From Bacteroides sp. M10 (GTDB lineage: Bacteria > Bacteroidota > Bacteroidia > Bacteroidales > Bacteroidaceae), in assembly GCF_014334015.1 (NCBI RefSeq), contig NZ_CP060488.1, positions 1,818,501 through 1,882,500 on the forward strand: 64,000 nt of DNA, written 5' to 3'. Of the stretch, positions 4,501 to 27,920 are shown piece by piece; position 1 is the first letter of the stretch, and every line of letters starts with the position of its first letter. The notes below the pieces were generated by a model. That model was not told the origin of the DNA and did not search any database. It saw only the letters and a list, made by a program, of their open reading frames with translations. A program made the position numbers and the translations under genes.

Positions 4501-4607
4501 CGCACCACACCGGATATAACTTCTTGCACTTGTGCCCGGCATACTTCATTGCCTGTGAACAGGCATACGATGCACAAAAGTGTGATTATTCTGTTTTTCA
4601 TATACAT
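1575..4607 (-). CDS. SusC-like TonB-dependent outer-membrane transporter (second pair of PUL 1)
   Basis: This 1010-residue protein is a SusC/RagA-family porin that imports oligosaccharides with energy from TonB-ExbBD. A signal peptide (residues about 1-25, ending CRAQ) is followed by a carboxypeptidase-D-like beta-sandwich (about 29-110), a plug domain (about 125-235, with YIRGLNSINGNSPLVVLDG and SILKDAAAKALYG) and a C-terminal beta-barrel ending in an aromatic strand (FNIGLNLNF). The conserved TonB-box-like stretch EVVVVGYGTQKK found in the other two SusC proteins here is absent; the equivalent position reads SLEVAMLQKERKGG. Two start codons lie six bases apart (MYMKNR); the second, at 4601, is as likely. 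It follows the SusD at 4620-6458 by 12 bases, making a SusC-SusD-SusC-SusD order in one transcript. Confidence 0.95.
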   Translation of the reverse strand: MYMKNRIITLLCIVCLFTGNEVCRAQVQEVISGVVRNESNEPLDGAIISVPDNPEYTTSSDKDGKFIMEIPSGASMVICKIPGYRNQTMKFTLNKPVEFRLISDIAGQDTSLEVAMLQKERKGGYTGAISTVQGEELVKTPNSGFSATLTGRLAGLTSIQSTSTPADDATTMYIRGLNSINGNSPLVVLDGIPAPLFDMNTLDANTVESVSILKDAAAKALYGPRASSGVILITTKRGEIGRTKVNVNMDFSIQQATQRPKIVSTGEYAQMRNQALLNDGGTPLYSLYEIAGFTDGTMPGHDWYDTFMNDAASMQRYNVNISGGNNRVKYLVNAGYLHQNSLIDAEKNDNYNPALKLHRFNILANVDVTLHRYLNCFLNTNVTIDRMNQGYNGTGDIMNSIYQMAPTVPGPITEDGKVITAEYNEYPTYGLINRSGYSHQTGINLNVAYGMNLDLGFLTKGLSVKGIVGYEANYDGTIYGSTDYARYAANGSGLFGTHTTLPLSLSKTANMRYFINFQGFINYNRIFGGRHEVDAFVSYFNENMMKNGDLPYDRLSLMGHVKYGYDSRYYIQGDFTYDGTEQFRPGNRFKFFPTVSAAWVVSNESFLKDTDWLSFLKIRASAGWLGNDQISDTRFLYATDVRYKDAGYLLSNYYGFHTVEGMQGNPYIHYEESFQQNYGIDVTLFNSLGITFDYWNVKQTQMAIQDNSVSSAQGIASENLPFENLGKMNNKGFDIELSYIKNLKCGLRMTIRGNMGYNKNEVTDIKELNRTASGYYYPYRKTGYSAGQQFGYLIDYSNGNGYYNSQEEIDKSGLRFSGASPRPGDFIYKDLNNDGNIDERDQAPMDKAQTLPTLSYGGSIQLEYKNFDLYVQLQGVSGTAAYYSGCGIFDNAYQGVYTDLHRNAWTADRYATNEKISYPALTTGSSSSLQSNEFFYSKNNYMRLKNVVLGYTLPKRWSSKLKLEKMRFYISGANLLTTSSLKFDNLDPEQYSYSVYPIYRTFNIGLNLNF

Positions 4608-11531: not shown

Positions 11532-14500
11532 TTATTCTTGTTTTAAGACGATCACAGAATGAGCCGGAAGTAAACATAGAATTTTATCGTTCACTTTGAG
11601 AGGCTGGGCGTCCGGAGCCAACATTTGGTCTGTGGTAGGTAAACCGTCTTTGATATAACGGTAAACCTGATAATTCCCTTTGGCTTGCGTATGTTCGTTG
11701 ATGAGGCTTATTGTTTTCTCCTGGTCCATTCCATTGGCGAAAACATATACCCATTTGCCATTTGTGTTTCGAACAGCAGTTCCTGCATACCATTCTTCCG
11801 GTGTTGCTATCGGATGGATTTCAGCTCCCGGGCGTATGAAACGTGTCAACAGAGAATAGGCATAGTACTGCGGGCGTACCTCGTAATCACTTTTGATATC
11901 GTTGTAGTATGGCTCCGAAGCGTATGTTTTCTTTACATACTTCCATAAACCCAGTTGCTGCATTGCTCCGTAGTCTGCATCCTTACCATAGTATTGGTCT
12001 ATCAGGCTCCAATAGCTAACACCGCTTGCTCCTGCATTGAGTAGATTGATGACTATGCGTGTCATGAGTACTCCTCGTTCATACAAGTCGATATCTTTTT
12101 GTCTGGTGGCACCTACGCATTGATTACCTCCGAATTCACCGATGAAATGGGCTTTTCCAACTGAAGAGGCCAATTGAGAGTTTTGTTTTTCCCAATCCAG
12201 AATTGTGGAGTTCGGAGTTTCGTAGCCGAAGATATAGGTGTGGGAGTTGAATACGTCAGCAACGTTCGCCAGTCCTTTCGTGCAGGCTGCCAGATATTTA
12301 TGCGTTCCTGTACCTCCGTCTGAATTGTCAGAAAGACTGAAATGTACTTTATTTCGTATTCCATCCTCTTTGAAACGTCTGTCGAGTACTTTACACATTT
12401 CAATATAGTCGGCGGTGGGAGCAGCTTTACCTTTGATGATATATGACCAATCTGGTTCGTTGATCGGAGTAATCTCTTTGACGCACGTGTATTTTTTGTT
12501 GTTGAGCAGGTGTTGTACAAGTGCGGAAAAGTTCTCGCTCCATTCTTCATAGTTAGTCGGGGCTACTACCCAGTTACCATAATTCCCTTCGGCCAGGAAA
12601 TGTCCCGGAGGGGCTCCCCAAAGTACAAGGGTGACTTCCATTTTCTGTTCTTGTGCCATATTCAATACTTTGTAGAGTGATTGCATTTCTACAGAGTTGA
12701 AAGTGAAATTATGCCAGTCGATTTTGGATGCATCCGGATTGTCATTCTTTGGCTCATACCATTGTGGCATCACCATCACCCGTAAGCTTTGCAGTCCCAT
12801 TTCTTTGACACGTTTCACAACGATGCGCTCCCAGTCTTCAGCTTTGGCTCCATCATTGCGGGTCACATTTTGTGAGAGGAAGTGGGGATCTAGTTCTGCA
12901 CCTATAGCACGGAGCTTTACACCGGTTTTCTTTCCTACAGAAAGTTTCTGTATGGCAGTTGTTGAACTTTGGTATTTGATTATCAGACTACTTTGCGGGT
13001 TATCCAGTGTCAGCGTGAAGCCGTTAGCCAGTTCTTTACCGGTTTTCTTTATAGCCTCTCCTGTATCTTTATTGGTGAGTATATAAGTGTGGTCAGGGTG
13101 TAGTCCTGATAAATTGACAGTATAGCTCTTGTCCGGATTGTCTTTGCGGCGGAAAGCTACGATGTATCCGCTGTCATCCGACGGACGATAAAGTTGGTAT
13201 GCTAGCCAGATATTTTCCGAAGTAATGTTGTTTATTCCACTCAACGGATAGTAATCTTCATAGAAATAGGGACGGAGTTCTTTGAACTCTGCCTGGCGGT
13301 CGCGCATATCATAGATGGATTGTCCGGCTTCGGTTATTTTCCAGTTGTAGATAATAGAGGTTCCGAGGCTGGAACGGAAAGTGAATTTATCGGCACTCAC
13401 AGTTCCTGTACCATGCAGGGGAAGGTATAAGTTCAATCCGTAAGTATGGCATTGATAACCGATTGGTTCTCCATAACTGTAGTCTGTTCTCCACATCGGT
13501 GCACTGCGTGAGATACTTTCGAGGTCAATACGGCGTCCGCCACTGGCACAATTATCAACCAGCAAGCCCGGAAAGCGGTTCAGCAGATATTCCCAGAAAG
13601 AATAAAGTCCTTCAATGTATCGGATTTCGCAGATACCTTGTCTGCCAGGTTCATCATTGGCAGCCCAGAAACCTTCCGGTTCTATATTGAAATCCTGGCG
13701 GTAGTAGTCTATGCCATTTTCTTCGAGGAAGTCTCCGATATATTTACTCATCCATCGACATGCCTCCGGATTTCCGAGATTGAATAGATAAGAGTCGTGC
13801 TCACCATCTTTTGTCCAGTCTTCCTGTTTGGCTTTTCCTCTGGCATCCAACATCCATTGAGGGTGTTGCAGTGCCCAGGCTGAGCCTTTCATAACACGCT
13901 CCGGTTCAAACCATACCATGAACTTGGAACCAACTCTATGCACTTCGTCGGCGATGGGGCGTAACCCTTCGGGGAAACGAATAGAGTCGACGGTCCAGTT
14001 TCCTACGGTGTTCGCCCAATTCTTATGATTGGCTACATCTGCAGAGTGATTGTACCATCCGGCATCCAGCCAGAATACTTCGGGTACTAATTTGAATTGT
14101 TCATACCGTTTCACCATAGCAATGGCATAATCTGTAGTCAGGCAGGTATATTCATTACAGGGAGTAGGATCACCGTAGTTGAAACTGGTCGATATTGGAT
14201 ATACGGTCGGTTTACCATCTACTTTCCAAGTGTGGTGGGCTTGCACGAAACGGCGGAACTGGTTGTGTCCTTTCATCCGGTCGGAACCGTTCCAGAATGA
14301 CAGGCATACACTGGAAGTGCGGATGCTCTCTTCCGGATACAGATAGGTTTTCAAACGTTCAATTCCGGAGGTAAGCGCTACGCTTTGCTGGTCTGCACAG
14401 CGCACATCGGCAAACCAGGTTCCTGTCCATCCGATGGCTACGATAACTCCTTGATTGGCCGGAGATTCAATATTGAAGAATGGCATACGCATTTGTGAAG

Positions 14501-15041
14501 AGCGTCCACCTTCCGGTCTCATATAAAGATTATCACCCGGAGACAAGATTGTAAGTTGCTGGCTGAAATCTGATTTGGATGCATGGCTGCCTTCGGAATG
14601 ATGAAGGTTGAATGCTCCCGGATGCTGGTAGCGGAATGTGATATCAGACACTTTTACGTTGGCAATCTCCGGCGTATTTTTCTTTCCCTGGTTGGTGAAA
14701 CGGAGTACCCATTCCACCGTATTGAAGTCGGTAAAGCCTTTCACTTCACATTCGACTTTTAATCCTCCGGATGGTTCACGATAAGTATAAAGGTATTTCA
14801 GAACCTTGGGATCGTCACTTTTCTGACGCGTAGCCGTATAAGACCAGCTTTTGATAAATTCCTGTGAAGGTTTACCTCCATATTCGAAAGAGAAAGGAGG
14901 GACCACACCGCGGGCAAAGTGGGTGGTTATCCATTGGCTGGTGTTTACCAGGCGGTCGCTCATGCGGGCTACCGTCTGTCCTGTTCCATTATGAGGGAAC
15001 AGAAGCAGAATGAATAGATAATATAGTATTCTTTTTTTCAT
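11532..15041 (-). CDS. Two-domain glycosidase: GH36 alpha-galactosidase-like plus clan GH-A domain
   Basis: This 1169-residue secreted enzyme joins two catalytic modules. Residues about 25-690 match GH36 (clan GH-D): the nucleophile is Asp450 in YYRQDFN, the acid/base Asp520 in MWRTDY, and the family signature DNCASGGRRID lies between. Residues about 712-1169 form a clan GH-A barrel with acid/base Glu862 in TPINEPDW and nucleophile Glu969 in FIGEFGGN, followed by a GH30/GH39-like beta-sandwich ending LPAHSVIVL. The two modules resemble the separate neighbours at 15038-17137 and 18441-20036. Its ATG overlaps the stop of the upstream GH36 gene by four bases (ATGA), implying translational coupling. 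Alpha-galactosidase activity is the usual GH36 function but other alpha-linked substrates are known; the exact GH-A family is unassigned. Confidence 0.9.
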   Translation of the reverse strand: MKKRILYYLFILLLFPHNGTGQTVARMSDRLVNTSQWITTHFARGVVPPFSFEYGGKPSQEFIKSWSYTATRQKSDDPKVLKYLYTYREPSGGLKVECEVKGFTDFNTVEWVLRFTNQGKKNTPEIANVKVSDITFRYQHPGAFNLHHSEGSHASKSDFSQQLTILSPGDNLYMRPEGGRSSQMRMPFFNIESPANQGVIVAIGWTGTWFADVRCADQQSVALTSGIERLKTYLYPEESIRTSSVCLSFWNGSDRMKGHNQFRRFVQAHHTWKVDGKPTVYPISTSFNYGDPTPCNEYTCLTTDYAIAMVKRYEQFKLVPEVFWLDAGWYNHSADVANHKNWANTVGNWTVDSIRFPEGLRPIADEVHRVGSKFMVWFEPERVMKGSAWALQHPQWMLDARGKAKQEDWTKDGEHDSYLFNLGNPEACRWMSKYIGDFLEENGIDYYRQDFNIEPEGFWAANDEPGRQGICEIRYIEGLYSFWEYLLNRFPGLLVDNCASGGRRIDLESISRSAPMWRTDYSYGEPIGYQCHTYGLNLYLPLHGTGTVSADKFTFRSSLGTSIIYNWKITEAGQSIYDMRDRQAEFKELRPYFYEDYYPLSGINNITSENIWLAYQLYRPSDDSGYIVAFRRKDNPDKSYTVNLSGLHPDHTYILTNKDTGEAIKKTGKELANGFTLTLDNPQSSLIIKYQSSTTAIQKLSVGKKTGVKLRAIGAELDPHFLSQNVTRNDGAKAEDWERIVVKRVKEMGLQSLRVMVMPQWYEPKNDNPDASKIDWHNFTFNSVEMQSLYKVLNMAQEQKMEVTLVLWGAPPGHFLAEGNYGNWVVAPTNYEEWSENFSALVQHLLNNKKYTCVKEITPINEPDWSYIIKGKAAPTADYIEMCKVLDRRFKEDGIRNKVHFSLSDNSDGGTGTHKYLAACTKGLANVADVFNSHTYIFGYETPNSTILDWEKQNSQLASSVGKAHFIGEFGGNQCVGATRQKDIDLYERGVLMTRIVINLLNAGASGVSYWSLIDQYYGKDADYGAMQQLGLWKYVKKTYASEPYYNDIKSDYEVRPQYYAYSLLTRFIRPGAEIHPIATPEEWYAGTAVRNTNGKWVYVFANGMDQEKTISLINEHTQAKGNYQVYRYIKDGLPTTDQMLAPDAQPLKVNDKILCLLPAHSVIVLKQE

Positions 15042-17137
15042 TCTTTATTCGGTTTTTCGTTGGTAACTTTATATTTTAGTAATAAGGAACTATGTGGCTT
15101 TTCGAGGAACAGTGGCAACAGACTGGTCAGTTCTTTTCCCTGATAGATTTTGCTCTGTCGGCTATCCATGTCTGTCACTGTATAGTATTTTTCCGGATCC
15201 ACTCCTGAAAGTCTGACGGTGATTTGTTTGTCTTTGGAGGCGGTTCTGCGGAAAGCAACGATAATACCACTGTCGTCCGATGGACGATGCATTTGATAGG
15301 CTAGCCAGATATCATCCCGCGTCATGTCTTCTGTACCCGTCAGTGGGTAATAATCTTCGTAATAGTAAGGTCTGATTTCGTGGAATTCTTTCAGACAACG
15401 TTGCATTTCGTAAACGGAGGCATTTTTATCGGTTATTTTCCAGTTATAAATCAAAGCTGTGCTGACGCTTGAGCGGAAAGAATACGGATCGGTCTGTAAA
15501 CTACCTGTTCCATGTAAAGGCAGGAAGAAATTCAGGCCATACGTGTGACATTGGTAGCCGTCCGGATCGTCGTAATGATAATAATCACTCCTCCATAGTG
15601 GTGCGCTTCGGCCGATTGTTTCCCAGTCAATACGTCGTCCCCCACTGGCACAGTTGTCTATGAGCAGGTTCGGGAATCGGTTCAGCAGATAATCCCAGAA
15701 GTAGTATAGTCCTTCGATGTGTCGTATCTCTTTCATTCCTGTACGTCCGGGCTCATCGTTGGCTGCCCAGTAGATGTCCGGCTGCATATTGAAATCCTGA
15801 CGGTAATAGTCTATGCCGTTTTCTTCGAGCATATCGCCTATATATTTACTCATCCAGTGGCAGGCTTCCGGATTTCCCAGATCGAACAGTAGGTAGGTGT
15901 CATTGTTGTGTTCGGGAATGTCGAGCATCCAGTCGGGGTGTTCTACTGCCCATTGGGTACCACGGATGACACGCTCGGGTTCGAACCAGACCATGAATTT
16001 AGCTCCTACTTTGTGTATTTCGTCGGCTACAGGACGAAGTCCTTTGGGGAAGCGCAATGTATCTACAGTCCAGTTACCGGCTGTGTTGGCCCAGGTCTTG
16101 CCATGTTCGAAGTCTGCAGCATCGGTGTTCCATCCGGCATCCAGCCAGAATACTTCGGGCTTCAATCCGAACTGTATGTAACGTTTCACCATGGCAATGG
16201 CATAATCGGCTGTCAGGCATGAGTATTCCGTACAAGGTGCGGGGTCCCGATAGTTGAATCCGCTGGAAAGAGGATATTCGGCAAATTTTCCGTTGATTTT
16301 CCGTGACTTGTGTGCCAGGACAAAACGGCGGAATTTATTGTGTCCTGCCATCCGGTCGATATTTTCCCAAAACATCAGACTGATACTTGGGGTACGAATT
16401 GTTTCCTGTGGACGTAAGTATAATTTCATGGTTTTCATTCCCGAAGCCATGGATATTGTACGATTATCTTGTGCGCATACATCTGCATACCAGGTGCCCG
16501 ACCAGCCTACTCCTAATATGACTCCCTGTCCGGCAGGTGATTCAATGTTGAAGAAAGGAAGATAGTCCCCTTCTGAAGAGCGTCCTCCTTGTGGAGACAT
16601 CTGTTTGGTTTCACCCGTTGCCAGAGTAACTGAACGTGGATGGAAATCATATTTGGAGATATGGTTTCCGTCTGCATAGTGTAACTTGAATTCTCCTTTA
16701 GAAGCGTATTGCATGGCAAGGTCCACTACTTTCACTTGTTCCAGAGTGGGAGAGTTGCTCGTACCTTTGTTGGTGAAGTTCAATACCCATTCGGCAGCTT
16801 GATAACTGGGATAGCCTTTTACGGTACATTCTACTTTCAGTCCGTTGGTAGGATTGTAGTAGGTAAAGAGATACTTTATCACATCCGCTTCTTCGGATTC
16901 TATCTTTTGCTGGGAATAGTCCCATTGGCGGATAAATTCTGCGGAAGGTTTCCCGTCACATATAAACGAGAACGGAGGTGTTTTTCCTTTAGCGAATTGT
17001 TTCTGAATCCATTTTTCGATTTCAGGAATGTGTTTGGAGATTTTAGCCGTCGTCTGACCCACGGCTATGATGCTCCACACACTCATAATCAGTAATGAGA
17101 ACAGGAATTTCGATTCGATTTTCTTGAAATGTTTCAT
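15038..17137 (-). CDS. GH36 family alpha-galactosidase-like enzyme
   Basis: This 699-residue secreted protein has a signal peptide (about 1-27, IIAVGQ) and a GH36 layout: an N-terminal beta-supersandwich, a TIM barrel with GLKPEVFWLDAGW, FMVWFEPERV, nucleophile Asp448 (YYRQDFN), signature DNCASGGRRID and acid/base Asp518 (WRSDY), then a C-terminal beta domain. GH36 enzymes remove terminal alpha-galactose, and some alpha-N-acetylgalactosamine, by a retaining mechanism. It is closely similar along its whole length to the N-terminal module of the fusion enzyme encoded immediately downstream, with which it shares an ATGA overlap. The MFS transporter gene ends 12 bases upstream. The substrate linkage is inferred from family only. 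Confidence 0.92.
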   Translation of the reverse strand: MKHFKKIESKFLFSLLIMSVWSIIAVGQTTAKISKHIPEIEKWIQKQFAKGKTPPFSFICDGKPSAEFIRQWDYSQQKIESEEADVIKYLFTYYNPTNGLKVECTVKGYPSYQAAEWVLNFTNKGTSNSPTLEQVKVVDLAMQYASKGEFKLHYADGNHISKYDFHPRSVTLATGETKQMSPQGGRSSEGDYLPFFNIESPAGQGVILGVGWSGTWYADVCAQDNRTISMASGMKTMKLYLRPQETIRTPSISLMFWENIDRMAGHNKFRRFVLAHKSRKINGKFAEYPLSSGFNYRDPAPCTEYSCLTADYAIAMVKRYIQFGLKPEVFWLDAGWNTDAADFEHGKTWANTAGNWTVDTLRFPKGLRPVADEIHKVGAKFMVWFEPERVIRGTQWAVEHPDWMLDIPEHNNDTYLLFDLGNPEACHWMSKYIGDMLEENGIDYYRQDFNMQPDIYWAANDEPGRTGMKEIRHIEGLYYFWDYLLNRFPNLLIDNCASGGRRIDWETIGRSAPLWRSDYYHYDDPDGYQCHTYGLNFFLPLHGTGSLQTDPYSFRSSVSTALIYNWKITDKNASVYEMQRCLKEFHEIRPYYYEDYYPLTGTEDMTRDDIWLAYQMHRPSDDSGIIVAFRRTASKDKQITVRLSGVDPEKYYTVTDMDSRQSKIYQGKELTSLLPLFLEKPHSSLLLKYKVTNEKPNKE

Positions 17138-17149
17138 TAGAATATAGGT

Positions 17150-18304
17150 TTATGTGGTTTTTACTTTTCTCATTATTCCGATCAGATAGCACCATACAAT
17201 GGCAAGTACTATAATTGCAGATAACTGACTGTGGAATGAATCAGTGATTATTCCTAAAATAGGCGGGAGGACGGCACCGCCGGATACGCCGACGATAAGA
17301 AGTGCAGATACTTCGTTCGCTTTCTCGGGAACACGTTTCAAAGACAGAGAGAAGATGATGGAAAACAGATTGGCATATCCTATCCCGAAAACCGCTACAC
17401 ATCCGAGGATAAACCAGAGATTAGTGCTAATGGTCATCAGTATCAATCCTGTGAGAGCTATCCAGACGCTATAAATATAGAATTTACTTTCTGAATATTT
17501 CATCAGTAGGATACCACCCAAAAAGGCTCCTACAGTGCGGGCGAAGAAATACACACTATTTCCCATTCCTGCATCTGTCAGTGGTAGATCGCAACGTTCC
17601 ATCAGGAATTTAGGGAAAGTCATATTGATACCTACGTCTACACCTACCAGCACGAGAATACCGATAAAGAAAGCAAGAATGTATTTGTCTTTGAATAATT
17701 CAAGAGTGACTTTGAAAGAAATGTTCTTCCGTTCCTGTTGTTTTTCTTGTATAGGGGTAAGCCATAGCCATATCAAAGCGAGCAGTGACAGTCCGGCATA
17801 AATGGGGAATATCATTTTCCATCCGAAAAAACTACCAGTCACCCAAGCTGCCAGGATAGGACCCAGGAATGAACTGACTGCTTTGACAAATTGTCCTAGG
17901 GTTAATGTACCTGTCAACTTATCGTTTGCAACGACATCCGTTACTAATGGATTGAGTGAAACTTGCAATAGAGTGTTACCGATACCTATCAAGGCAAATG
18001 CGATTAATATGGCGGTAAAGTCGTATGCAACGAGTGGAAGGCACATGGCTAATACATGGAATGCGAAGCTAAGTAGTACGGTTTTCTTGCGTCCGATGCG
18101 ATTCATTAACATTCCGGTGGGAATAGAAAGCACCAGGAACCACAAGAAACAGGATAGAGAGATGAGATTAACCATCGTATCGGTGAGATGGCTGAAATCA
18201 TTCTTCACATAGCTCGTGGTTATTCCGACAATGTCAACAAATCCCATAACGAAGAATCCGAACATGACGGAGAGCATTTTTACTATGGATATTTCTTTTT
18301 TCAT
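17150..18304 (-). CDS. MFS sugar transporter
   Basis: This 384-residue inner-membrane protein has about 12 hydrophobic segments and the MFS loop motif between the second and third helices (GMLMNRIGRKKTVLLSF). The overall pattern, with a long cytoplasmic loop around residues 195-205 (TPIQEKQQERKN), fits proton-coupled MFS sugar carriers like those encoded in other Bacteroides PULs. It would import the monosaccharide or disaccharide freed in the periplasm by the GH36, GH-A, GH2 and GH78 enzymes, delivering it to the ROK kinase and GmhA-type isomerase of the same transcript. A structured repeat array fills most of the gap upstream (18336-18438) and may set its expression apart from the preceding gene. 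The specific sugar is unknown. Confidence 0.88.
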   Translation of the reverse strand: MKKEISIVKMLSVMFGFFVMGFVDIVGITTSYVKNDFSHLTDTMVNLISLSCFLWFLVLSIPTGMLMNRIGRKKTVLLSFAFHVLAMCLPLVAYDFTAILIAFALIGIGNTLLQVSLNPLVTDVVANDKLTGTLTLGQFVKAVSSFLGPILAAWVTGSFFGWKMIFPIYAGLSLLALIWLWLTPIQEKQQERKNISFKVTLELFKDKYILAFFIGILVLVGVDVGINMTFPKFLMERCDLPLTDAGMGNSVYFFARTVGAFLGGILLMKYSESKFYIYSVWIALTGLILMTISTNLWFILGCVAVFGIGYANLFSIIFSLSLKRVPEKANEVSALLIVGVSGGAVLPPILGIITDSFHSQLSAIIVLAIVWCYLIGIMRKVKTT

Positions 18305-18335
18305 TCGTGTACTTTTGATGATAAATTACTTGGTT

Positions 18336-18438
18336 GGTGGGCATATATATCCAGCACGGTGGATATATATGGCTAACATGGTGAATATATATGCCCAATA
18401 CGGTGTATATATATCCCCACTAAATGGGGTATATATAC
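18336..18438. repeat. Array of about five AT-core repeats at 20-24 bp spacing, able to form two exclusive sets of hairpins
   Basis: Five units, four starting GGTG or GGGG, each carry an ATATATA(T) core; cores begin at 18343, 18363, 18385, 18407 and 18431. Units 1 and 2 form a perfect 12-bp inverted repeat (CATATATATCCA at 18342-18353 with TGGATATATATG at 18360-18371). Units 4 and 5 form a 13-bp stem with one bulged base (18405-18418 with 18426-18438). Unit 1 can instead pair with unit 3 (GGGCATATATAT at 18339-18350 with ATATATATGCCC at 18385-18396). The array occupies the space between the stop of the GH-A gene (18441) and the start of the MFS gene (18304), so it is transcribed. No run of Ts follows, so a simple terminator is not obvious. 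Confidence 0.85.
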
Positions 18439-18440
18439 TT

Positions 18441-20036
18441 CTATTTTTGTACTAATACCCTGATTGATGAACGAGATAATTTAAGTTTTAGGTTATTCTC
18501 TTGCGTGTTGACCGTTTCTGTTGATTCTATCAGATTATCACCTTCCGGTAGGCGTCCTTCCATATATTTGTAGACATTGTATTCTCCATTGGCACCTTCT
18601 TTATCATTTTCCAACTGTATCATCTTGTCTTTGTCTGTAGCGTTGGAAAGTACATACGTCCATTTTCCCTCTGTGTTGAGAAAAGCACTTCCGGCTATCA
18701 ACTCGTCGCCGAGATCCAATGGATATACTTCGTCGCCCTGGCGGACAAAACGTGTCAACAGACTATATGCATAGTATTGAGGACGTACCTCGTAGTCTTC
18801 CTTGATTTTGGAATATACATCTGGGTCTTCGGTATAAGCGGATTTTAGATATTTCCATAAACCGAGTTGCTGCATTTCCGAATAGGAGGCATTGCGGTTA
18901 TAATATTGATCGATCAGACTCCAGTAGCTTACTCCGCAAGCACCGGCATTCAGATAGTTCAGAGCAACGCGGATTAGCTGTACCCCTCGCGTATATGTGT
19001 CTATACCATATTGACGGGCACTTCCGTATCCAGGGAAACCGAATTCTCCAACAAAATGTCTTTTACCTCCTGCAGAAGCTATATTTTGACGTTCCCAATT
19101 TACGAGAGTCGAATTAGGGGTGTTGTAGTCAAACTTGTATACATGAGAGTTATACAGATCGGCTTCATCGTTTGTGAAAGCGGAAACACAGGCAGCGATA
19201 TATCCGGGTGTACCGTCTGTATTGTCAGAAAGGTTGAAGTGTACCTTACTGCGTATTCCATCTGCTTTAAACTTGATATCCAGTGCTTTCACCATGGGGG
19301 CGTAGGTGTCCTGCCAACCCATGGTTTCAAAATCACCTTGCCACATGATGCGGCCGTAACCTGCTATATGACTGTCAGGTTCATTGAATGGAGTAATTTG
19401 ATTGATACAGGTATAATGTTTTTCTTCAATCAGGTATTTCACCATTGTGGAGAAGTTTTCTGCAAATTCTTCATAGTTATCTATACCGGCAATCCAACCC
19501 GGATTAACGTTATAACTTCGTGCATCACACAAGAAATGCTTTTGACCATTGTTAATGCCTGATAGTAATTCGATATTGGTAATGGCTCCCCATACGACTA
19601 ATGTCACTCCGATATTATTCTCCTGGGCCAGATCCAATACTTTGTATACAGATTGCATTTCTTCCGAATCAAAAGTGAATTTGCTCATATTCGCGACATT
19701 AGGATCGTTGTTGTCATTGGAGGGTTCCCACCATTGTGGCTGCATCATGATTCGGAATTGTTGTACTTTCATTTTCTTTACCCGTTGTACAACTATATTT
19801 TCCCAATCTTCAGCCTTTGAACCATCATTGCGGGTGATGTTTTGTGAGAAGAAGTGTGGATCCATCTCGACACCGATAGCATGAACCGGAGTTCCTGTTG
19901 AATTCCCTACTGCAACAGGATAATAGTTGCAAGCCGGGCAATCGTCATATTTGTTATAATCATCCGAGCAGGCGGACATTCCCCAAAGTGTGCAAACAAT
20001 ACTCAATAGAGTTTTACTGATATGTGTCATTTTCAT
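18441..20036 (-). CDS. Clan GH-A glycosidase lipoprotein (GH5/GH30/GH39-like)
   Basis: This lipoprotein enzyme (about 531 residues from the ATG at 20036; the ATGs at 20042 and 20030 are alternatives) has a lipobox GMSAC. The catalytic barrel begins near HAIGVEMDPHFFSQN. Glu219 in TPFNEPD is the expected acid/base and Glu331 in FVGEFGFPG the expected nucleophile, the strand-4 and strand-7 glutamates of clan GH-A retaining enzymes. A C-terminal beta-sandwich (about 410-531) starts after YYAYSLLTRFVR and resembles those of GH30, GH39 and GH51. It is a full-length relative of the C-terminal module of the fusion enzyme at 11532-15041. It follows the gmhA-like gene by about 28 bases. I cannot assign a CAZy family by eye; an endo- or exo-beta-glycosidase role is inferred. 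Confidence 0.82.
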   Translation of the reverse strand: MKMTHISKTLLSIVCTLWGMSACSDDYNKYDDCPACNYYPVAVGNSTGTPVHAIGVEMDPHFFSQNITRNDGSKAEDWENIVVQRVKKMKVQQFRIMMQPQWWEPSNDNNDPNVANMSKFTFDSEEMQSVYKVLDLAQENNIGVTLVVWGAITNIELLSGINNGQKHFLCDARSYNVNPGWIAGIDNYEEFAENFSTMVKYLIEEKHYTCINQITPFNEPDSHIAGYGRIMWQGDFETMGWQDTYAPMVKALDIKFKADGIRSKVHFNLSDNTDGTPGYIAACVSAFTNDEADLYNSHVYKFDYNTPNSTLVNWERQNIASAGGKRHFVGEFGFPGYGSARQYGIDTYTRGVQLIRVALNYLNAGACGVSYWSLIDQYYNRNASYSEMQQLGLWKYLKSAYTEDPDVYSKIKEDYEVRPQYYAYSLLTRFVRQGDEVYPLDLGDELIAGSAFLNTEGKWTYVLSNATDKDKMIQLENDKEGANGEYNVYKYMEGRLPEGDNLIESTETVNTQENNLKLKLSRSSIRVLVQK

Positions 20037-20064
20037 TGCCATATTGATTAAATTTAGTAGGTTA

Positions 20065-20643
20065 TTATTCAAAGCCTAATTCTGCCTCAATTGCCTGAAT
20101 CAGAATGTGGATAACTTTGATGTGAATTTCTTGTATTCTGTCGGAATGTGCTGCTCGTGGCGCGCAGACTGCAATGTCTGCCAGTCGTGACAGTTCATTC
20201 TCTCCTTTTGAAGTCAGCGCTATCACTTTCATTCCATTGTTGTGTGCTTGTACGGCAGCTTTCAGTATGTTCTCGGAATGTCCGCTTGTGCTGATGGCCA
20301 ATAATACATCTCCCTTACATCCCATAGCTTCTACATAGCGGGAGAAGATCTCGTTGAACGAAAAATCATTTCCCACACAGGTCATGTAAGCCGGGTCATT
20401 GATTGCAATTGCCGGTAGCGGGATGCGGTTGTTGCGGTAACGTCCGGTTAGTTCTTCTGCAAAGTGGGTGGCGTCACATAAAGAACCTCCATTACCACAG
20501 CTGATAATCTTATTTCCGGCTTTTAATGCTTCGGCGCAGGTAGAGGCTGCCTGTGAAATAATCCCGACTGTTGTTGTTTCCTCAAGAAAGCTCTCCAACG
20601 TTTGCCGAGCCTCTTCCAGTGTTGTTTCAATAAGCTCTTTCAT
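20065..20643 (-). CDS. gmhA: Sedoheptulose-7-phosphate isomerase (GmhA family, SIS domain)
   Basis: This 192-residue cytoplasmic protein has the same length as E. coli GmhA and aligns with it along its whole length. GmhA interconverts sedoheptulose 7-phosphate and D-glycero-D-manno-heptose 7-phosphate. The SIS phosphosugar site is clear (CGNGGSLCDATHFAEELTGR; ISTSGHSEN). His60, Glu64 and His179 line up with the family metal/catalytic residues His61, Glu65 and His180 of E. coli. Family members normally feed LPS or capsule heptose synthesis, yet here the gene sits inside a degradative locus, five bases after a ROK kinase gene and before a glycosidase gene, with no hldE, gmhB or hldD homologue nearby. 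Running in reverse it would pass a phosphorylated heptose into the pentose phosphate pathway. Acting on mannose 6-phosphate is an alternative. Confidence 0.9.
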   Translation of the reverse strand: MKELIETTLEEARQTLESFLEETTTVGIISQAASTCAEALKAGNKIISCGNGGSLCDATHFAEELTGRYRNNRIPLPAIAINDPAYMTCVGNDFSFNEIFSRYVEAMGCKGDVLLAISTSGHSENILKAAVQAHNNGMKVIALTSKGENELSRLADIAVCAPRAAHSDRIQEIHIKVIHILIQAIEAELGFE

Positions 20644-20648
20644 AATAG

Positions 20649-20660
20649 TTAATCGGTTAA
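20649..20660. promoter_or_regulatory. Putative LacI-family operator at the ROK/gmhA junction
   Basis: The 12-mer TTAATCGGTTAA is a near-palindrome and is identical to the one upstream of lacI (27934-27945); the identity continues for two further bases (GT). It covers the stop codon of the ROK kinase gene. LacI-family proteins bind palindromes with a central CG step, so this may be an intragenic operator. The match could also be chance, since it overlaps coding sequence. Confidence 0.45.
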
Positions 20661-21617
20661 GTTAGCGGCTACAGAAAGAGCTGCATAATCTCCTATCTGC
20701 TCTCCCAAGGCGGCTGGTTTCACTTTACATACTCTGTTTGCACAGGATAATGCTTCCTGATCGATTATCTTTTGCATGATGGGTTCCATCATATTTTTAT
20801 TCCGGGTATAGATGCCACCTATCACAATGACTTCCGGATTCAAGATATCGATCACCATGGATAATCCTTTTCCCAGATAAATAGCAGACGTCTCATATAT
20901 GCTTTGGGCTAATTTATCACCTTTGGCAGCTTCTTCAGCCACTTTTCGGGCAGTAAGCTGATCTAGTTCCTGTAAGGTACACCATTCAACTTTCTGTCCG
21001 GTCTGCAATTTCTCCATCACATACATTTTGGAGAGTTGAGCAATACCTCCACCGCTGGCAAATCCCTCAAAAGAGCCCTTTTTACCGTAACCTATCGGAC
21101 CGAAATCCGACAGGCGGATATGTCCCAGTTCTCCGGCATTGTCATTGGTGCCCGTATACAGTTTGCCATTTAATATTAATCCTGCTCCCAGTCCCGTACC
21201 GAATGTGAGAAAGACCATATTCTTAGTTCCTTTTCCTGCTCCGAACTTCCATTCGGCTAAAGCACAGGCATTGGCATCATTGTGTAGACTGGTTTTAATG
21301 CCCGTCTTTTTTTCCACCATTGCCACAATGGGGATGTTGTCCCATCCCGGTAGGTTAGGGGGAGACATCACGATGCCTGTTTCACTGTTGAGAGGACCTC
21401 CGCAACAGATTCCAATCGCTTTTGTGTTAGTAGGGGTTAGCTGGTGGAGGTTCATCATCTTTTCGGTTTCACAGAGAATTCTGGCTATTGTTTCGTCGAC
21501 TGTGGTCGTATCAAATTTCTTTTTGTCGATGATATGTAGCTCGTCGTTTTCTTTGATACCGTAGATGATGGCGCATTTGGTGCCTCCTACGTCAATTCCT
21601 AACAAGTTCTCTTTCAT
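20649..21617 (-). CDS. ROK family sugar kinase lacking the usual zinc-binding cysteines
   Basis: This 322-residue cytoplasmic kinase has the ROK layout: phosphate-binding loop LLGIDVGGTKCA near residues 5-16, the catalytic Asp in LHNDANACALAEW, FGTGLGAGLI, and GELGH. ROK kinases phosphorylate hexoses such as glucose, mannose, fructose or N-acetylhexosamines. The family zinc motif CxCGxxGCxE, expected just after GELGH, reads GYGKKGSFE here, so all cysteines are missing while the downstream Glu and the His of GELGH remain. The gene begins five bases after the GH2 stop and ends five bases before gmhA, so kinase and isomerase are almost certainly made together. It probably phosphorylates the sugar imported by the MFS carrier; whether that sugar is a hexose or a heptose is open. 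Confidence 0.88.
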   Translation of the reverse strand: MKENLLGIDVGGTKCAIIYGIKENDELHIIDKKKFDTTTVDETIARILCETEKMMNLHQLTPTNTKAIGICCGGPLNSETGIVMSPPNLPGWDNIPIVAMVEKKTGIKTSLHNDANACALAEWKFGAGKGTKNMVFLTFGTGLGAGLILNGKLYTGTNDNAGELGHIRLSDFGPIGYGKKGSFEGFASGGGIAQLSKMYVMEKLQTGQKVEWCTLQELDQLTARKVAEEAAKGDKLAQSIYETSAIYLGKGLSMVIDILNPEVIVIGGIYTRNKNMMEPIMQKIIDQEALSCANRVCKVKPAALGEQIGDYAALSVAANLTD

Positions 21618-21622
21618 AACTA

Positions 21623-24025
21623 TTATTTTTTAGCGTATAATCCGGTTTTTTGTAACAGCCGCTTGTATTCTTTCAAGTTGAAAGGTGCCTTGCCGTATAG
21701 GTAATGATTCATGAATTTCTGATTACCGATCTGGTATTGGATCAGATAGATTCCTTGACCGCTTTCTTCCGGTAGTGAGGCTATTCTGACCTTTTGATTG
21801 GCTGGAATACGGAAAGTGCTCTCATAGATTTTACGTCCTGAGGATGCATCTGTTACCGTTACATTACCACTTTGTACGTTGCGTGTGTCATTCGTTCCTA
21901 TCAGTGGGTAATTTCCGCCTTCTGCATCATTGATTAGTACACAAACATCCTGTTGAACATTCTTGATGAAATAATATGCCATCTTCTTTGAATTGTAGTA
22001 GTCAACAATCGCATCAGAGATCACTGGCCATCCATCCCGCAGGTTCCACCAGATAATACCAGTCTTGTCGTCAAACTTCTTTCCACGCCACATCTCTATG
22101 AAATATTTCATAGCTTCTGCCTGTACGGATTGAGAAGCGAATATAAAATCATCCAGTTTGGAGGGAACTTCACCAAAAAGTAAACGTACCTGATTAATCA
22201 TAAGATTATTGCGATCGAATGTCTTTCCCCATTCTGGGAATCTACGAACAGATTTGGTAACCCATTCATCATTCCATTCATGATTTTTTGTCCAGGGATA
22301 TACGGCATCTTTCGTCATCATTTTCTGGAGACTTTCTAAATTAGGGCAGCCGTGATAGCCGATTTCACTGACAAAGCAGCAGGTAGCATCCGTATAGAAT
22401 TTGTCTTTGTAATATCCTCTGGGACCCCATAAATGGTTTTCTGGTAAATATTGGTCAGCACTTCCTCTTTCATATACCGCTTGGCTGTAGTAAGGAGAGC
22501 TGGGAAGATAAGGGCGAGTAGGGTCAAACTCATAAATAATTGCCGGGAGGACCTTGCGGCTAACTACATCCTGATTTGGATTAATATTAAATGGTTGCAA
22601 AGACCAGCGCAGTGCACAATCGTCTTCATTATTTCCTGACCATAAAACGAGTGATGGATGATTACGTAACTTGCATACAACAGAAATGGCCTCTTCTTCC
22701 AATGCTTGTGTAAATGAGCTGCGTTGAGGATAGAAAGTGCATCCCATCGTAAAATCCTGCCATACCATAATGCCGTTTTCATCGCATAAATCAAAGAAAT
22801 GATGATCTTCATACACGTTGCCACCCCAACAACGTATCATATTGCAGTTTAATTCTACAGCCATGCGGATAGATTCGTCTACGAAAGAATGATCCCGGCT
22901 ATGGAGTGCATCCATGGGTACCCAATTGGTTCCGTGAATAAAAATAGGTTCTCCATTGACTATGAAACAGAATTTACCCGGATGATCCGGTGGGAGGTTG
23001 ATGTCTGTAATGTCTAGTTGAATCGTGCGGAGGCCTACCCGTTTATTATCTGTTGATAAAATAGTGCCGTCAGAATCTACTAACTCTACTTTTGCATCAT
23101 ATAAAGCCGGTTCTCCATATCCTCTTGGCCACCATAAATCAGCATTCTTGATTTCCATTATATATCGAAATGCTGGGGAAACGACAACAGAGCTTCCTTT
23201 ATATATTTCTTTCCCATGGCGACTTAATGTATATACGGCTTTCACTTTGTCGAACTTTTCGAAAGGTAGTTTTACTTGTATATCAGTATACAAACGTACA
23301 TTTCTGGTAGCAGTGTCTACATTGGCGACCATATAGTGAACATCTGTGAGACGTGCCGGATTCAATACGCGTAATTCTACATCTCTCCACAAACCTGCAC
23401 TGACTAATCGTGGCAGAATGTCCCATCCATAGGTGTGCGGAGCTTTTCTGATGAATACGGATTCTTCAGACGGGAAGTTTCCAATACTGAATGTCCCTAA
23501 CAGATGTTTTTGTCCTTCAATAACAGATGAACGGAGTATCACTTGGAGTTGATTGCTTTCTCCTGCTTTTATTTCTTTAGTTACATCAAAAGCATGTTCA
23601 ATCATCATATTTTCTGCTTTGCCAATGTGCTTTCCATTCAGCCATATATCGGCCAGACAGTCTATTCCGGCAAAGAAGAGTTGATATTGTTGTCCTGGTT
23701 TTAGTTGTGGCGCTACGAATGATTTGGAATAACACCATTGATAGCCTTCCCATTTGCGTAATTCATTTACATTACTGCCAATCATCGGATCTTTAATTAA
23801 GTTGGCAGCCATTAGGTCTAGTTCTACATTACCGGGGACTTGGGCTGATAGATGTTTCACTTCAGCTAGTTGTATGTCCTTGGGCGAAGTTATAGGTTCT
23901 TCAGGTTGCATCCAATAAGAGAGTTCCCATGTTCCATTTAAGGAGATGGAACTACCGGAATCGGCAAAAACACCACTTGTACAAGTGAGAAATATCAAAA
24001 ATAGCAGTGTACTGATTTTATTCAT
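21623..24025 (-). CDS. GH2 beta-mannosidase-like exo-glycosidase
   Basis: This secreted enzyme is about 800 residues from the ATG at 24025, chosen because it opens a good signal peptide (KISTLLFLIFLTCTSGVFA). It shows the GH2 order of sugar-binding jelly roll (about 25-190), immunoglobulin-like sandwich and TIM barrel. Glu467 in WSGNNED is the acid/base; the Asn-Asn-Glu form typifies beta-mannosidases rather than beta-galactosidases. Glu554 in FVSEIGYHG is the nucleophile. Beta-mannosidases remove terminal beta-mannose from mannans or N-glycan cores. It lies between the GH78 gene (92-base gap) and the ROK kinase (five-base gap). Other beta-glycoside specificity cannot be excluded. Confidence 0.88.
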   Translation of the reverse strand: MNKISTLLFLIFLTCTSGVFADSGSSISLNGTWELSYWMQPEEPITSPKDIQLAEVKHLSAQVPGNVELDLMAANLIKDPMIGSNVNELRKWEGYQWCYSKSFVAPQLKPGQQYQLFFAGIDCLADIWLNGKHIGKAENMMIEHAFDVTKEIKAGESNQLQVILRSSVIEGQKHLLGTFSIGNFPSEESVFIRKAPHTYGWDILPRLVSAGLWRDVELRVLNPARLTDVHYMVANVDTATRNVRLYTDIQVKLPFEKFDKVKAVYTLSRHGKEIYKGSSVVVSPAFRYIMEIKNADLWWPRGYGEPALYDAKVELVDSDGTILSTDNKRVGLRTIQLDITDINLPPDHPGKFCFIVNGEPIFIHGTNWVPMDALHSRDHSFVDESIRMAVELNCNMIRCWGGNVYEDHHFFDLCDENGIMVWQDFTMGCTFYPQRSSFTQALEEEAISVVCKLRNHPSLVLWSGNNEDDCALRWSLQPFNINPNQDVVSRKVLPAIIYEFDPTRPYLPSSPYYSQAVYERGSADQYLPENHLWGPRGYYKDKFYTDATCCFVSEIGYHGCPNLESLQKMMTKDAVYPWTKNHEWNDEWVTKSVRRFPEWGKTFDRNNLMINQVRLLFGEVPSKLDDFIFASQSVQAEAMKYFIEMWRGKKFDDKTGIIWWNLRDGWPVISDAIVDYYNSKKMAYYFIKNVQQDVCVLINDAEGGNYPLIGTNDTRNVQSGNVTVTDASSGRKIYESTFRIPANQKVRIASLPEESGQGIYLIQYQIGNQKFMNHYLYGKAPFNLKEYKRLLQKTGLYAKK

Positions 24026-24147
24026 TGTTAATAGATTTGATTGATGGTGTGACAAAGTAACTAGTGTTATATTTTTATAGTATTACATAACGGTCTCATT
24101 TTTGCTTCTTTATATACCTCTATTAAACCTCCTTTCTTTTGTTTCAA

Positions 24148-26784
24148 TTAAAATGTGAGTTGATGTTTTCCTGACCTTAAATCTATCTTTTTACCATTAT
24201 ATTCTACTGTTGCATTCGTATTGACTGGGATCGTGACTTTGAGAATCACTTGTTCTCCTTTACGTTCCCATTCAGAACGAATGATTCCGTTTACAGATTT
24301 ATATTCTGCTTTTACCCAGTCAAGACCTTTTACGAAATGAGGTTGGATAAGAGTATGTTTGAATCCGGGTTTCTGTTCATCATAATTAATGCCTGCCAAT
24401 ACATTGTACATCCATGCGTTAATGTCTCCAAGAAACATGTGATTTACAGAGGCATCTCTAAATTCAGGTGAAAGTATCCATGTTTCTGCCAGTGTAGTGA
24501 AACCTTGTTTTATCCAGTTACCCCAAGATGGAGCTTCTTCTTGTGCGGCCATCTGATATGCCAAGTCAGCATATCCATATTTGGAAAGCATCCGCAGGAC
24601 TGTTTTACTGCCTAAAACTCCAAAATCGAGCAGGTTTTTATTGGCTTTTATCATCGTAGAAAGATTATCTGCAACCTGCTGTTCGTATTCTTTAGGAACG
24701 ATTCCAAGGTATAAGGCAACTCCTTGTGCTGCTTGCGAACCATTGGCATAAATAGCTTTGGATGTGTCGAAGTATTTGTGATTGATAAGCAATTTCAATT
24801 CTTCTGCTTTCTTAGCATAACTACTACCATCTTTTCCAATGAGTTCTGCAAATTTAGCCATATACAGATTGTCTAAATAATAATAGCAGGTAGTGGTGAA
24901 TTCTGTAGGGGTTTGTGTTTTATGGAATACCCAGTCACCAATTCCGTAAGTTACGGTTCCTTCCGCGTCCTCGCGTCCTGCGAGGTAGGCAAGGTATTTG
25001 GTGCATACAGGCCATAGTTTTTCGATGCTTCTTGTATCTCCATAGTAGTGGTAAATTGCCATTGGCACGATAAACATGGCAGCATCCCATACAGGACCTA
25101 TCCAGTCATCATAGCCCCATCCGGAACTAGGAATGATTCCCGATATACGTCCTTCTTCATTTTGATTATCAATCATATCATCCAGCCATTTTTCATAGAA
25201 AGTAATACCATCGAAGTTTAATAATCCTAAATCCATTGTTATGTGTGCATCGGCAGTCCATCCATTTTTCTCTCGTTGGGGACAGTCAGTCGGGATACTC
25301 ATCAGATTTGATAAGTATGATTGATTAGCAGCTTTCCATATTTTATTTAATAGTTCATTTGAACAACTGAATTTACCAACAGGAGGAACAGCCGTATGTA
25401 TGAATTGAGCGGTTAAGCTCTCTTTAGTAAGTTTTACAGGACGATCTGAACGAACTTCTACATATTGAAATCCATGATATGTAAAATCTGGAGTGAATGT
25501 ACCTTGTTTTCCGTCCAATATATAAGTGTCTGTTTGAAAAGCGAGGCTAGGTAATGGTTTGTAGTAAATATCTAAGTTGCGCATTTCCAAGCGTCCGTTA
25601 TCTTTTAGCAATTCGCCGTGTTGCATACTGACTTTAGTGCCTTTCTTGCCATTGATAGAAAGAGTACAGACCCCTGACATATTAACTCCAAAATCGTATA
25701 CATAGACTGTATCACCAAAAGAACGCATATTGATTGGAGTGATAAATTGTTCCGTTTCAATAGCAGGCATGCTTTGTGATACTAGTAGGGGAGAAGGGGC
25801 AGCCACCTGAATTGCATTTGTCCATTTAGAGTCATCAAAACCCGGTTTGTCCCATCCGGCAATTGCAAGACATGCATCATAGGTATCACCACTATAAATA
25901 TTGTTTTGTATATAAGGACCGGTACTCGTTTTCCAAGTAGAATCTGAATGGATGGTTTGCTTTTCTCCATTTTTATATAATATCTCCATTTCGCAGATCA
26001 TTCTTGGGCGGTTACGCCAGCGGGCTTGCTCATAGCTCCATGTTGCTACAGGGGCCGATTCGTTGTAGAATCCGTTCCCAAGTATTGCAGATAGTACGTT
26101 CTCTCCTTTGAGCAGTTGCGAAGTGACGTCGTATGTGTTATACAGATTTCTTTTATCATAATGAGTAAACCCCGGATTGAGATGTGATGATGTTATTGAT
26201 TTACCATTTAATGTCATTTTATAATATGCAGCGGCACTTACATATAATCTTGCTTGTTGTATATCATCTTGAGCGATAAACGACTTGCGCAACATGGGCG
26301 CTGGCGTATAATCTTTATCATGATTATCAGTAATCCATACTCCTGTCCAGTCACTTTGGTTGAGTTGAGCTGTTTCAAAACTGGATATAGGAGAGATAAT
26401 CTTATGTTCCTTTGTTTTATCCCATACTATTACTTGCCAGTAATAACGAGTTCTGGATTTCAATTTTTCTGATCCTTGATAGGTCGCATGAGGAGTGTCA
26501 GAGTAAATAGTGTCAGATTGCCAGCTATTATCGGATGAGTTTCTCAAATCTTGTTCCCGGGTGGCGATATATAGCTGATAGCTGTCTTGAGAAAACTCTG
26601 TTGCATCTTCATTATTGGTTGTGTAATTCCAGGTAAAACGCGGTGCTGGTGAATCAATACCAATCGGAGAAATTTGATATTCACATCGCATATTTTCAAT
26701 ATCAATGTTGTTACTGCTACATGCCCATACTAGAAGTCCTAATAGAGCCAGCATGTATTTTTCATTTTTAATTTGGAACTTCAT
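24148..26784 (-). CDS. GH78 alpha-L-rhamnosidase-like lipoprotein
   Basis: This 878-residue protein has a lipobox (LGLLVWAC, Cys22) and a GH78 layout: an N-terminal fibronectin-like domain (about 35-140), two jelly-roll domains, the (alpha/alpha)6 barrel and a C-terminal beta domain. The barrel carries the family motif PTDCPQREKNGWTADAH, whose Glu is the expected general acid, then SGWGYDDWIGPVW and QEEAPSWGNWIKQGFTTLAETW. GH78 enzymes invert and remove terminal alpha-L-rhamnose. It is the first structural gene of the locus, after lacI, and the gap before it holds a likely LacI-type operator (26869-26880). Family call is secure; the rhamnosidase activity is inferred from family. Confidence 0.92.
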   Translation of the reverse strand: MKFQIKNEKYMLALLGLLVWACSSNNIDIENMRCEYQISPIGIDSPAPRFTWNYTTNNEDATEFSQDSYQLYIATREQDLRNSSDNSWQSDTIYSDTPHATYQGSEKLKSRTRYYWQVIVWDKTKEHKIISPISSFETAQLNQSDWTGVWITDNHDKDYTPAPMLRKSFIAQDDIQQARLYVSAAAYYKMTLNGKSITSSHLNPGFTHYDKRNLYNTYDVTSQLLKGENVLSAILGNGFYNESAPVATWSYEQARWRNRPRMICEMEILYKNGEKQTIHSDSTWKTSTGPYIQNNIYSGDTYDACLAIAGWDKPGFDDSKWTNAIQVAAPSPLLVSQSMPAIETEQFITPINMRSFGDTVYVYDFGVNMSGVCTLSINGKKGTKVSMQHGELLKDNGRLEMRNLDIYYKPLPSLAFQTDTYILDGKQGTFTPDFTYHGFQYVEVRSDRPVKLTKESLTAQFIHTAVPPVGKFSCSNELLNKIWKAANQSYLSNLMSIPTDCPQREKNGWTADAHITMDLGLLNFDGITFYEKWLDDMIDNQNEEGRISGIIPSSGWGYDDWIGPVWDAAMFIVPMAIYHYYGDTRSIEKLWPVCTKYLAYLAGREDAEGTVTYGIGDWVFHKTQTPTEFTTTCYYYLDNLYMAKFAELIGKDGSSYAKKAEELKLLINHKYFDTSKAIYANGSQAAQGVALYLGIVPKEYEQQVADNLSTMIKANKNLLDFGVLGSKTVLRMLSKYGYADLAYQMAAQEEAPSWGNWIKQGFTTLAETWILSPEFRDASVNHMFLGDINAWMYNVLAGINYDEQKPGFKHTLIQPHFVKGLDWVKAEYKSVNGIIRSEWERKGEQVILKVTIPVNTNATVEYNGKKIDLRSGKHQLTF

Positions 26785-26909: not shown

Positions 26910-27920
26910 CTAGGGTAATGAACATGGCAGGACAAGTGTTTCTACTTCTCTCTTTTCGGTCGAATTTTCCAAGCGATATTTGATATCGCCAAGTAGAATC
27001 CTTACGGCATTCTTACCGATCTCTTCTATCGGCATTCTTGCGATGTTCATATTAGGTGCTAAGACACGGAATGCTGATACTCCATGAATACAAGCCAATT
27101 CATATCCTTTATTTATATTGATTCCTTTTTCATAAAAGTAACGGAATGCTTCCAGAGCCAAAATATGGGTTGTGAAGAAGAACCCATCTACATCAGGTAC
27201 TTTGCTGAATATTTGATCAAGAGTCTTGAAAACATTCTTCTCATAATCAACAAAGGTCACCTCTCCATATAGATCAGGATCAACGGGTAGGTTGGCTTCA
27301 ATTAAAGCTCTGGCATACCCTTCTCGTCTCATATTCATTGTGCGGAGATGAGGATTCGTAGTAATAATAGCTATTTTAGATGATCCGTTATCGATCATTT
27401 TCTTTACTAACTCGTAGCTACTGCCTTCATTGTCAATAATGATGTAATTTGTCTGCATCTCTGGAAAGTAGCGGTCAAATAAGACTAATGGATAGCCTTC
27501 TTTGACTAGATTCTGTATTTCAATTTTAGAAACTTTTGTGGGGGCTACTATAATTCCATCCACCTGTTTCGCTTTGAATAACCGGATCATTCTGTTTTCT
27601 CTTTCTATTTCAGATTCAGAGCTACAAATCATTAATGAATAGCCTTGCGCTTCCGCTTCCATTTCTATAGAGCGGGCAACTTTGGAGTAAAAAGAGTCTG
27701 TAATATCCGGTATGATTAATCCGATCGTACCCGATATACCCGTATTTAGGCTTCTGGCTAATAAATTAGGCTGGTAATTCAACTGTTTGGCGCATTGAAA
27801 GACTTTTTCTTGTGTAGCGAGACTAATGCCTTTTTCATCCCCCTTACCAGAAAGTACCCAAGAGACTGTTGTCTTGGATAATTTTAAGGTTTCTGCTATG
27901 TCTTTAAGGGATGTTTTCAT
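26910..27920 (-). CDS. LacI/GalR-family transcriptional regulator
   Basis: This 336-residue protein has an N-terminal LacI helix-turn-helix (residues about 3-25, SLKDIAETLKLSKTTVSWVL) and hinge helix region (LNYQPNLLARSL), then a type-1 periplasmic-binding-protein-like effector domain (about 60-330, beginning TIGLIIPDITDSFYSKVARS). Such regulators bind palindromic operators as dimers and respond to a sugar or sugar phosphate. It is the first gene of PUL 1 in transcription order, and palindromes lie upstream of it (27934-27945) and just downstream, before GH78 (26869-26880), suggesting self-regulation and control of the operon. Most Bacteroides PULs use hybrid two-component, SusR-like or ECF/anti-sigma regulators, so a LacI-type regulator heading a SusCD locus is less usual. 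Confidence 0.92.
   Translation of the reverse strand: MKTSLKDIAETLKLSKTTVSWVLSGKGDEKGISLATQEKVFQCAKQLNYQPNLLARSLNTGISGTIGLIIPDITDSFYSKVARSIEMEAEAQGYSLMICSSESEIERENRMIRLFKAKQVDGIIVAPTKVSKIEIQNLVKEGYPLVLFDRYFPEMQTNYIIIDNEGSSYELVKKMIDNGSSKIAIITTNPHLRTMNMRREGYARALIEANLPVDPDLYGEVTFVDYEKNVFKTLDQIFSKVPDVDGFFFTTHILALEAFRYFYEKGININKGYELACIHGVSAFRVLAPNMNIARMPIEEIGKNAVRILLGDIKYRLENSTEKREVETLVLPCSLP

Follow-up and report, generated by a model that had tools for sequence, protein, structure and literature searches.

Why does a gene for a GmhA-type isomerase stand five bases behind a sugar kinase gene in a locus otherwise equipped for glycan degradation? The locus lies in a 64,000-nucleotide stretch of Bacteroides sp. 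M10 (contig NZ_CP060488.1, positions 1,818,501 to 1,882,500), and this whole stretch is called the window below. Heptose synthesis is well known, and the product of GmhA is D-glycero-D-manno-heptose 7-phosphate. In the window, the GmhA-type SIS isomerase (192 residues, 20065..20643, minus strand) and the ROK-family sugar kinase (322 residues, 20649..21617, minus strand) very probably form a catabolic pair. In the route that we propose, the two enzymes would act consecutively. A sugar, most likely D-glycero-D-manno-heptose, would enter the cell, probably through a nearby carrier of the major facilitator superfamily (MFS). The ROK kinase, as a heptose 7-kinase, would place a phosphate on the terminal hydroxyl of the unbound sugar, and GmhA, working in reverse of its biosynthetic direction, would yield sedoheptulose 7-phosphate from the heptose 7-phosphate and so supply the pentose phosphate pathway. 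We consider this heptose route, with D-glycero-D-manno-heptose as the sugar, the best explanation of the locus and rate its chances of being right as about even. This sugar is favored because of the chemistry of GmhA, the recruitment of two separate GmhA lineages and the presence of ManA elsewhere in the genomes. A catabolic route of this kind had been put forward in an initial annotation of the window. Synteny, fusion, co-occurrence and missing synthesis genes strengthened its claim of teamwork between kinase and isomerase in a catabolic setting, while the heptose as substrate is plausible but unproven.

Is the isomerase truly a GmhA? By sequence it is, although it stayed slightly below the curated cut-offs of the two NCBIfam families that fit it best by far: with PRK00414 it reached 261.9 of the 265 bits required, with TIGR00441 206.4 of 209.45. 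Its best solved relative was a phosphoheptose isomerase (2i22/2i2w, 229 bits). The initial annotation had described a full-length GmhA with His60, Glu64 and His179 intact, 5 bp from the kinase in a degradative polysaccharide utilization locus (PUL). We confirm this description and add Gln171, which completes the set of zinc ligands, and the channel aspartate, Asp57, which is kept too. The four zinc ligands are described as completely conserved among GmhA orthologues and required for full activity (PMC5705639).

The kinase is less easily placed. It carries a Pfam ROK domain (189.3 bits, residues 6-311) and stayed below every NCBIfam cut-off, including those of the glucokinase, NanK, NagK and AlsK subgroups (best 192.8 against 260.35 bits). 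In an alignment of 21 members, its subfamily showed the motifs SPPNLPGW and GYGKxGSFEGF, and the usual ROK zinc cysteines (GPIGYGKKGSFEGF) were absent.

Are the two genes neighbors by more than chance? A search of other genomes for this synteny, suggested earlier, gave a clear answer. A scan of named genomes yielded 179 loci encoding a relative of the kinase, of which the best 80 were used, with neighbors counted by a DNA-level search; one locus that stops just past the kinase (L092) was counted as isomerase-linked. A GmhA-like gene was present within 2 kb of the kinase in 58 of these 80 loci. In 55 of them it follows the kinase directly and on the same strand; in L043 it lies upstream, and in L077 and L081 farther downstream. 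No such gene was seen within 2 kb in the other 22, some of which lie near contig ends; L015 has one at 3 kb. The pairing spans Bacteroidota, Clostridia, Spirochaetes and Verrucomicrobia. In L082 and L090, kinase and isomerase are even fused in one open reading frame (ORF) of 520 residues, and for L090 both Pfam domains, ROK and SIS_2, were confirmed. In view of synteny and fusion, we rejected the idea that the two genes are adjacent by chance. Small ORFs for putative relatives of rhamnose mutarotase were observed in L155 (8499-8813), where the ORF comes right after the kinase-GmhA genes, and in L068 (9206-9499).

Co-occurrence gave a similar picture. At E 1e-60 the kinase was found in 14 of 393 Bacteroidales genomes, and all 14 had a GmhA-profile match (one of them weak, G120 with 121 bits), which lay on the kinase's contig within about 350 bp in 10. 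None of 13 comparison Bacteroidales genomes, which had been chosen for a negative single-sequence search, gave a profile match. GmhA is rare in Bacteroidaceae (30 of 399 genomes at E 1e-15). A GmhA that is 60% or more identical occurs in eight of these 399 genomes, and the kinase (E 1e-60) was present in precisely these eight. Outside XB1A, the reference genome introduced below, the kinase adjoins GmhA in seven of eight loci at this identity, the exception being L157. There (8040-11058), a second GmhA copy stands beside a GH2 and a LacI gene without a kinase; the other copy of that genome is kinase-linked.

Could the pair instead serve synthesis, with the ROK kinase in place of HddA or HldE and heptose phosphates destined for a surface glycan? 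Such a role would agree with the biosynthetic function that GmhA has otherwise and with the surroundings of the distant Bacteroidaceae relatives, which lie with HddA- and HddC-like genes; an HddA-like ORF (32-55% identity to one representative) was near in at least 11 of 12 such loci, the twelfth being L166. We addressed this at the scale of a genome in Bacteroides xylanisolvens XB1A, the nearest named genome, to which all genome-wide statements refer; its locus L013 matches that of the window at 99.1% over 19,350 bases. The locus gene was the sole GmhA-like match in XB1A, both in a single-sequence search and in a profile search at E 1e-15. Models of HddA, HldE and GmhB found weak best matches only: 80 bits for HddA (ORF of 956 residues), 82 for HldE (366 residues) and 56 for GmhB (375 residues). 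From size and score we take these for putative FKP-like, PfkB-like and HisB-like proteins, respectively. On these weak matches, capsule heptose synthesis in XB1A was rejected. The earlier remark that no other heptose-synthesis gene lies near can thus be widened to the whole genome, as judged by these three models. The earlier catabolic idea was to fail if this were the only gmhA of the genome and required for capsule heptose; the first half was borne out in XB1A, but as to the second, searches there turned up no further enzyme of heptose synthesis. A biosynthetic role is unlikely because this GmhA is without findable synthesis partners in XB1A, GmhB among them. The PUL setting with its LacI regulator and MFS carrier also argues against it, as does the fact that ROK kinases phosphorylate primary hydroxyls. 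We regard synthesis by this pair as highly improbable.

Other carriers of the kinase pointed in the same direction. Since weak matches to the three models are frequent (HddA in 11, HldE in 14 and GmhB in 5 of 14 control genomes, above cut-off in 0, 2 and 1), only scores count for them, and since even clear HddA matches fall under the curated cut-off, we used thresholds of our own, at least 250 bits for HddA, at least 270 for HldE and at least 120 for GmhB. Fifty carrier genomes were picked from the 80 loci, 30 with a near isomerase and 20 from the 22 loci without one (L015 and L019 were left aside). Of the former, many of which are metagenome-assembled genomes and may be incomplete, 24 had neither HddA nor HldE at these thresholds and 23 lacked GmhB as well. 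Among the latter 20, a GmhA match was present in 17 and, at the same thresholds, HddA or HldE in nine. The expectation that kinases without a neighboring isomerase rely on a GmhA elsewhere in the genome is partly borne out by these numbers. A PfkB-HAD two-domain protein was seen near the kinase in L083 (Treponema, 16282-18168), and in three further genomes, those of L036, L063 and L071, PfkB-type ORFs (TIGR02198) of 637-689 residues adjoin GmhA; these are possibly heptose kinase-phosphatases.

Did the isomerase change when it joined the kinase? A tree was computed for 138 SIS proteins, with a bootstrap that had not fully settled, and the kinase-linked isomerases fell into two groups. Clade 1, with 28 kinase-linked rows and the isomerase of the window in it, lies on the side of GmhA from E. 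coli and V. cholerae and of GmhAs from Bacteroidales, a good number of them encoded near yifB. The deep clade 2 holds 30 kinase-linked rows (Clostridia, Flavobacteria, Spirochaeta, Maribellus), with eight HddA-linked Bacteroidaceae GmhAs nested inside. The isomerases of L037 and L043 were placed outside both. Well-supported branches force at least four changes of the kinase-linkage label. All 58 kinase-linked rows of the two clades retain the residues S55, H61, E65, D94, T120, Q172 and H180, numbered as in E. coli, and S119 is replaced by Thr in two, S121 by Gly in one and S124 by Ala in seven. R69 and D169 of the E. coli enzyme are kept in clade 1 and mostly lost in clade 2 and its HddA-linked kin. 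Within clade 2, only two columns tell the kinase-linked from the HddA-linked proteins when uniformity of at least 80% within each group is demanded. We infer that a substrate shift in the kinase-linked isomerases would predict more change at the active site. The wider claim built on these data is a tentative one, and we place it just short of an even chance: an undescribed but widespread route for D-glycero-D-manno-heptose, in which a single lineage of ROK heptose 7-kinases would have been joined independently by at least two GmhA lineages, once with fusion, and which would let gut bacteria channel heptose, perhaps taken from the surface glycans of other bacteria, into the pentose phosphate pathway.

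Which other sugars could the pair handle? Several observations weigh against the heptose route, the first being that both the kinase and the isomerase activities are predicted from sequence. Mannose 6-phosphate shares its C2-C5 configuration with the GmhA product. The ROK protein could act as a mannokinase, and the GmhA relative could have turned into an isomerase of mannose 6-phosphate that supplies fructose 6-phosphate, an alternative we hold to be unlikely. Glycosidases of manno type are frequent beside the kinase, with GH38 in eight of the 80 loci (within 3 kb), GH2 in eight (4 kb) and GH92 in two (6 kb), and GH92 is found in L157, L159 and L160 as well; these neighbors suit mannose and a manno-heptose equally. 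ManA was absent from six of the 50 carrier genomes. The mannose alternative is weakened, however, because type I ManA scored above cut-off in 44 of the 50, XB1A included, and in 25 of the 30 isomerase-linked carriers. Furthermore, we judge the kinase too rare for such a common sugar, as only 8 of 399 Bacteroidaceae genomes have it; the GmhA zinc site is unchanged, and a change of substrate would have been needed twice, once in each of two GmhA lineages. The initial annotation had raised mannose in view of a GH2 enzyme resembling beta-mannosidases (21623..24055, minus strand, signal peptide by eye). Beta-mannosidases proved to be only its next best relatives, the closest being CapGH2b with 54% identity.

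A different aldose, such as an altrose, galactose (by way of tagatose 6-phosphate) or one of the sugars in pectic side chains, would be a further substrate to consider, with a small probability in our estimate. It draws on the enzyme encoded directly behind the isomerase, a GH173 protein of 543 residues (18441..20072, minus strand, lipoprotein by eye, with conserved E231 and E343). GH173 has been described as a beta-galactosidase family, one of its two assayed founders comes from B. xylanisolvens, and pectic galactosyl residues were proposed by its authors as the target (PMC8810776). The earlier idea that the glycosidases of the locus free a heptose was not supported. Since the GH173 members described there were assayed as beta-galactosidases, the local glycan may be rich in galactose and contain no heptose. 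A structure model of GH173 (mean pLDDT 60.7) gave GH30-like matches that agree with that paper, which is weak evidence. In the locus of the capybara Bacteroidales genome MAG42 (L081), the structurally solved CapGH2b (3469-5865, identified by an exact stretch of 102 residues) stands beside GH173 and upstream of the relatives of kinase and GmhA; a substrate of CapGH2b was not found in the open-licence literature. An RGL11 protein and GH88 are encoded ahead of the kinase-isomerase genes in L037. Near the kinase, GH106 occurs in four of the 80 loci (within 4 kb), GH78 in six and GH36 in nine (both within 8 kb). On the other side, no enzyme for tagatose 6-phosphate or psicose 6-phosphate was recognized beside the pair, though no model search was aimed at them. 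The active site of GmhA is unchanged, and 13 of the 80 loci are MFS-kinase-isomerase groups without any of the tested glycosidases in the set distances (L053 and L056 have GH92-type ORFs farther away). In 22 of the 80 loci, a relative of the MFS carrier is encoded no more than 3 kb from the kinase.

The heptose route also has to be weighed against kinases found in other settings. In L058 (Mucilaginibacter) GH32 genes flank the kinase on both sides and a SusC-like gene lies upstream, an arrangement that fits the use of fructan. In L035 the kinase lies beside GH28, and in L036 it follows by 1 bp a KDPG/KHG-type aldolase (5402-6076), hinting at a different kinase substrate there. Because such isomerase-less relatives sit in fructan, pectin and aldolase settings, the kinase subfamily may have more than one substrate. 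The genomes of L046, L049 and L050 gave no GmhA match at all in the profile search. The two fused genes probably reflect a single event, as L082 and L090 are sisters in the tree. Finally, as many as 243 of the 393 Bacteroidales genomes have a GmhA in any case, so that its co-occurrence with the kinase in 14 of 14 genomes is only mild evidence and adjacency tells more.

How does the rest of the locus fit? All its genes from the LacI-family regulator (26910..27920), which is likely the PUL regulator, to SusD (4620..6458) lie on the minus strand and make up one degradative locus. Between the regulator and GH2 lies a GH78 protein of the alpha-L-rhamnosidase type (24148..26784). The start of GH2 called by the tool is a TTG, an inner ATG being likelier. 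Gaps of 5 bp separate GH2 from the kinase gene and the latter from gmhA, the ORF of which, as called, overlaps the next one. The MFS carrier (17150..18304) is distantly like the sugar carriers GluP, FucP and NagP, all below their cut-offs. Its assignment to the same transcript was not supported, as a 136-bp gap to GH173 (18310..18445) contains two strong AU-rich hairpins (-43.3 kcal/mol, z -5.57; repeated atatatat motifs) that could mark a transcript end or attenuation. Beyond the carrier gene follow a GH36-type glycosidase with alpha-galactosidase relatives (15038..17137), a GH36-GH173 fusion of 1169 residues (11532..15041, GH173 at residues ~700-1169), a leucine-rich-repeat protein (9746..11494) and SusC (6478..9717), all on the minus strand. 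The GH173 part of the fusion is a separate gene in L158 and L081. With GH173, GH2, GH78, GH36 and SusC/D all present, the locus belongs to the GH173 PULs. A second TonB-dependent receptor with a plug domain (1575..4607, minus strand) adjoins SusC/SusD and may indicate a double-receptor locus or a neighboring system.

Among the matches listed in the open-licence literature, no account of heptose use as food was found. If the heptose route is true, a kinase subfamily present in several phyla would gain a function, GmhA would be seen to work in reverse, and heptose-bearing bacterial glycans would suggest themselves as a nutrient in the gut. Even with an ordinary sugar as substrate, the kinase and isomerase would constitute a conserved metabolic unit, the isomerase half of which is annotated as biosynthetic.

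In comparison with known systems, the PUL is of the same kind as the GH173 PULs of Bacteroidales MAG42, with CapGH173 and CapGH2b, and of B. xylanisolvens. In the main text of the paper describing these, the words ROK, isomerase and heptose do not occur, and the kinase-isomerase pair is not discussed (PMC8810776). The window kinase shares the ROK domain with hexokinases such as glucokinase, ManNAc kinase and allose kinase, but forms a subfamily of its own, without zinc cysteines. The isomerase resembles GmhA of E. coli (2I22/2I2W), V. cholerae (1X94) and B. pseudomallei in sequence, zinc ligands, phosphate loop and length (about 190 residues), and stands on the same side of the tree as the E. 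coli and V. cholerae proteins. It differs from these enzymes in its link with a ROK kinase inside a locus for degradation and in the negative outcome of the searches of XB1A for HddA, HldE and GmhB. A contrast is offered by the HddA-HddC-GmhA clusters for heptose synthesis in Bacteroidaceae: they have a GmhA homologue in common with the PUL, partly from the lineage to which the Clostridial kinase-linked isomerases belong, but carry an HddA-like kinase and an HddC-like nucleotidyltransferase where the PUL has the ROK kinase.

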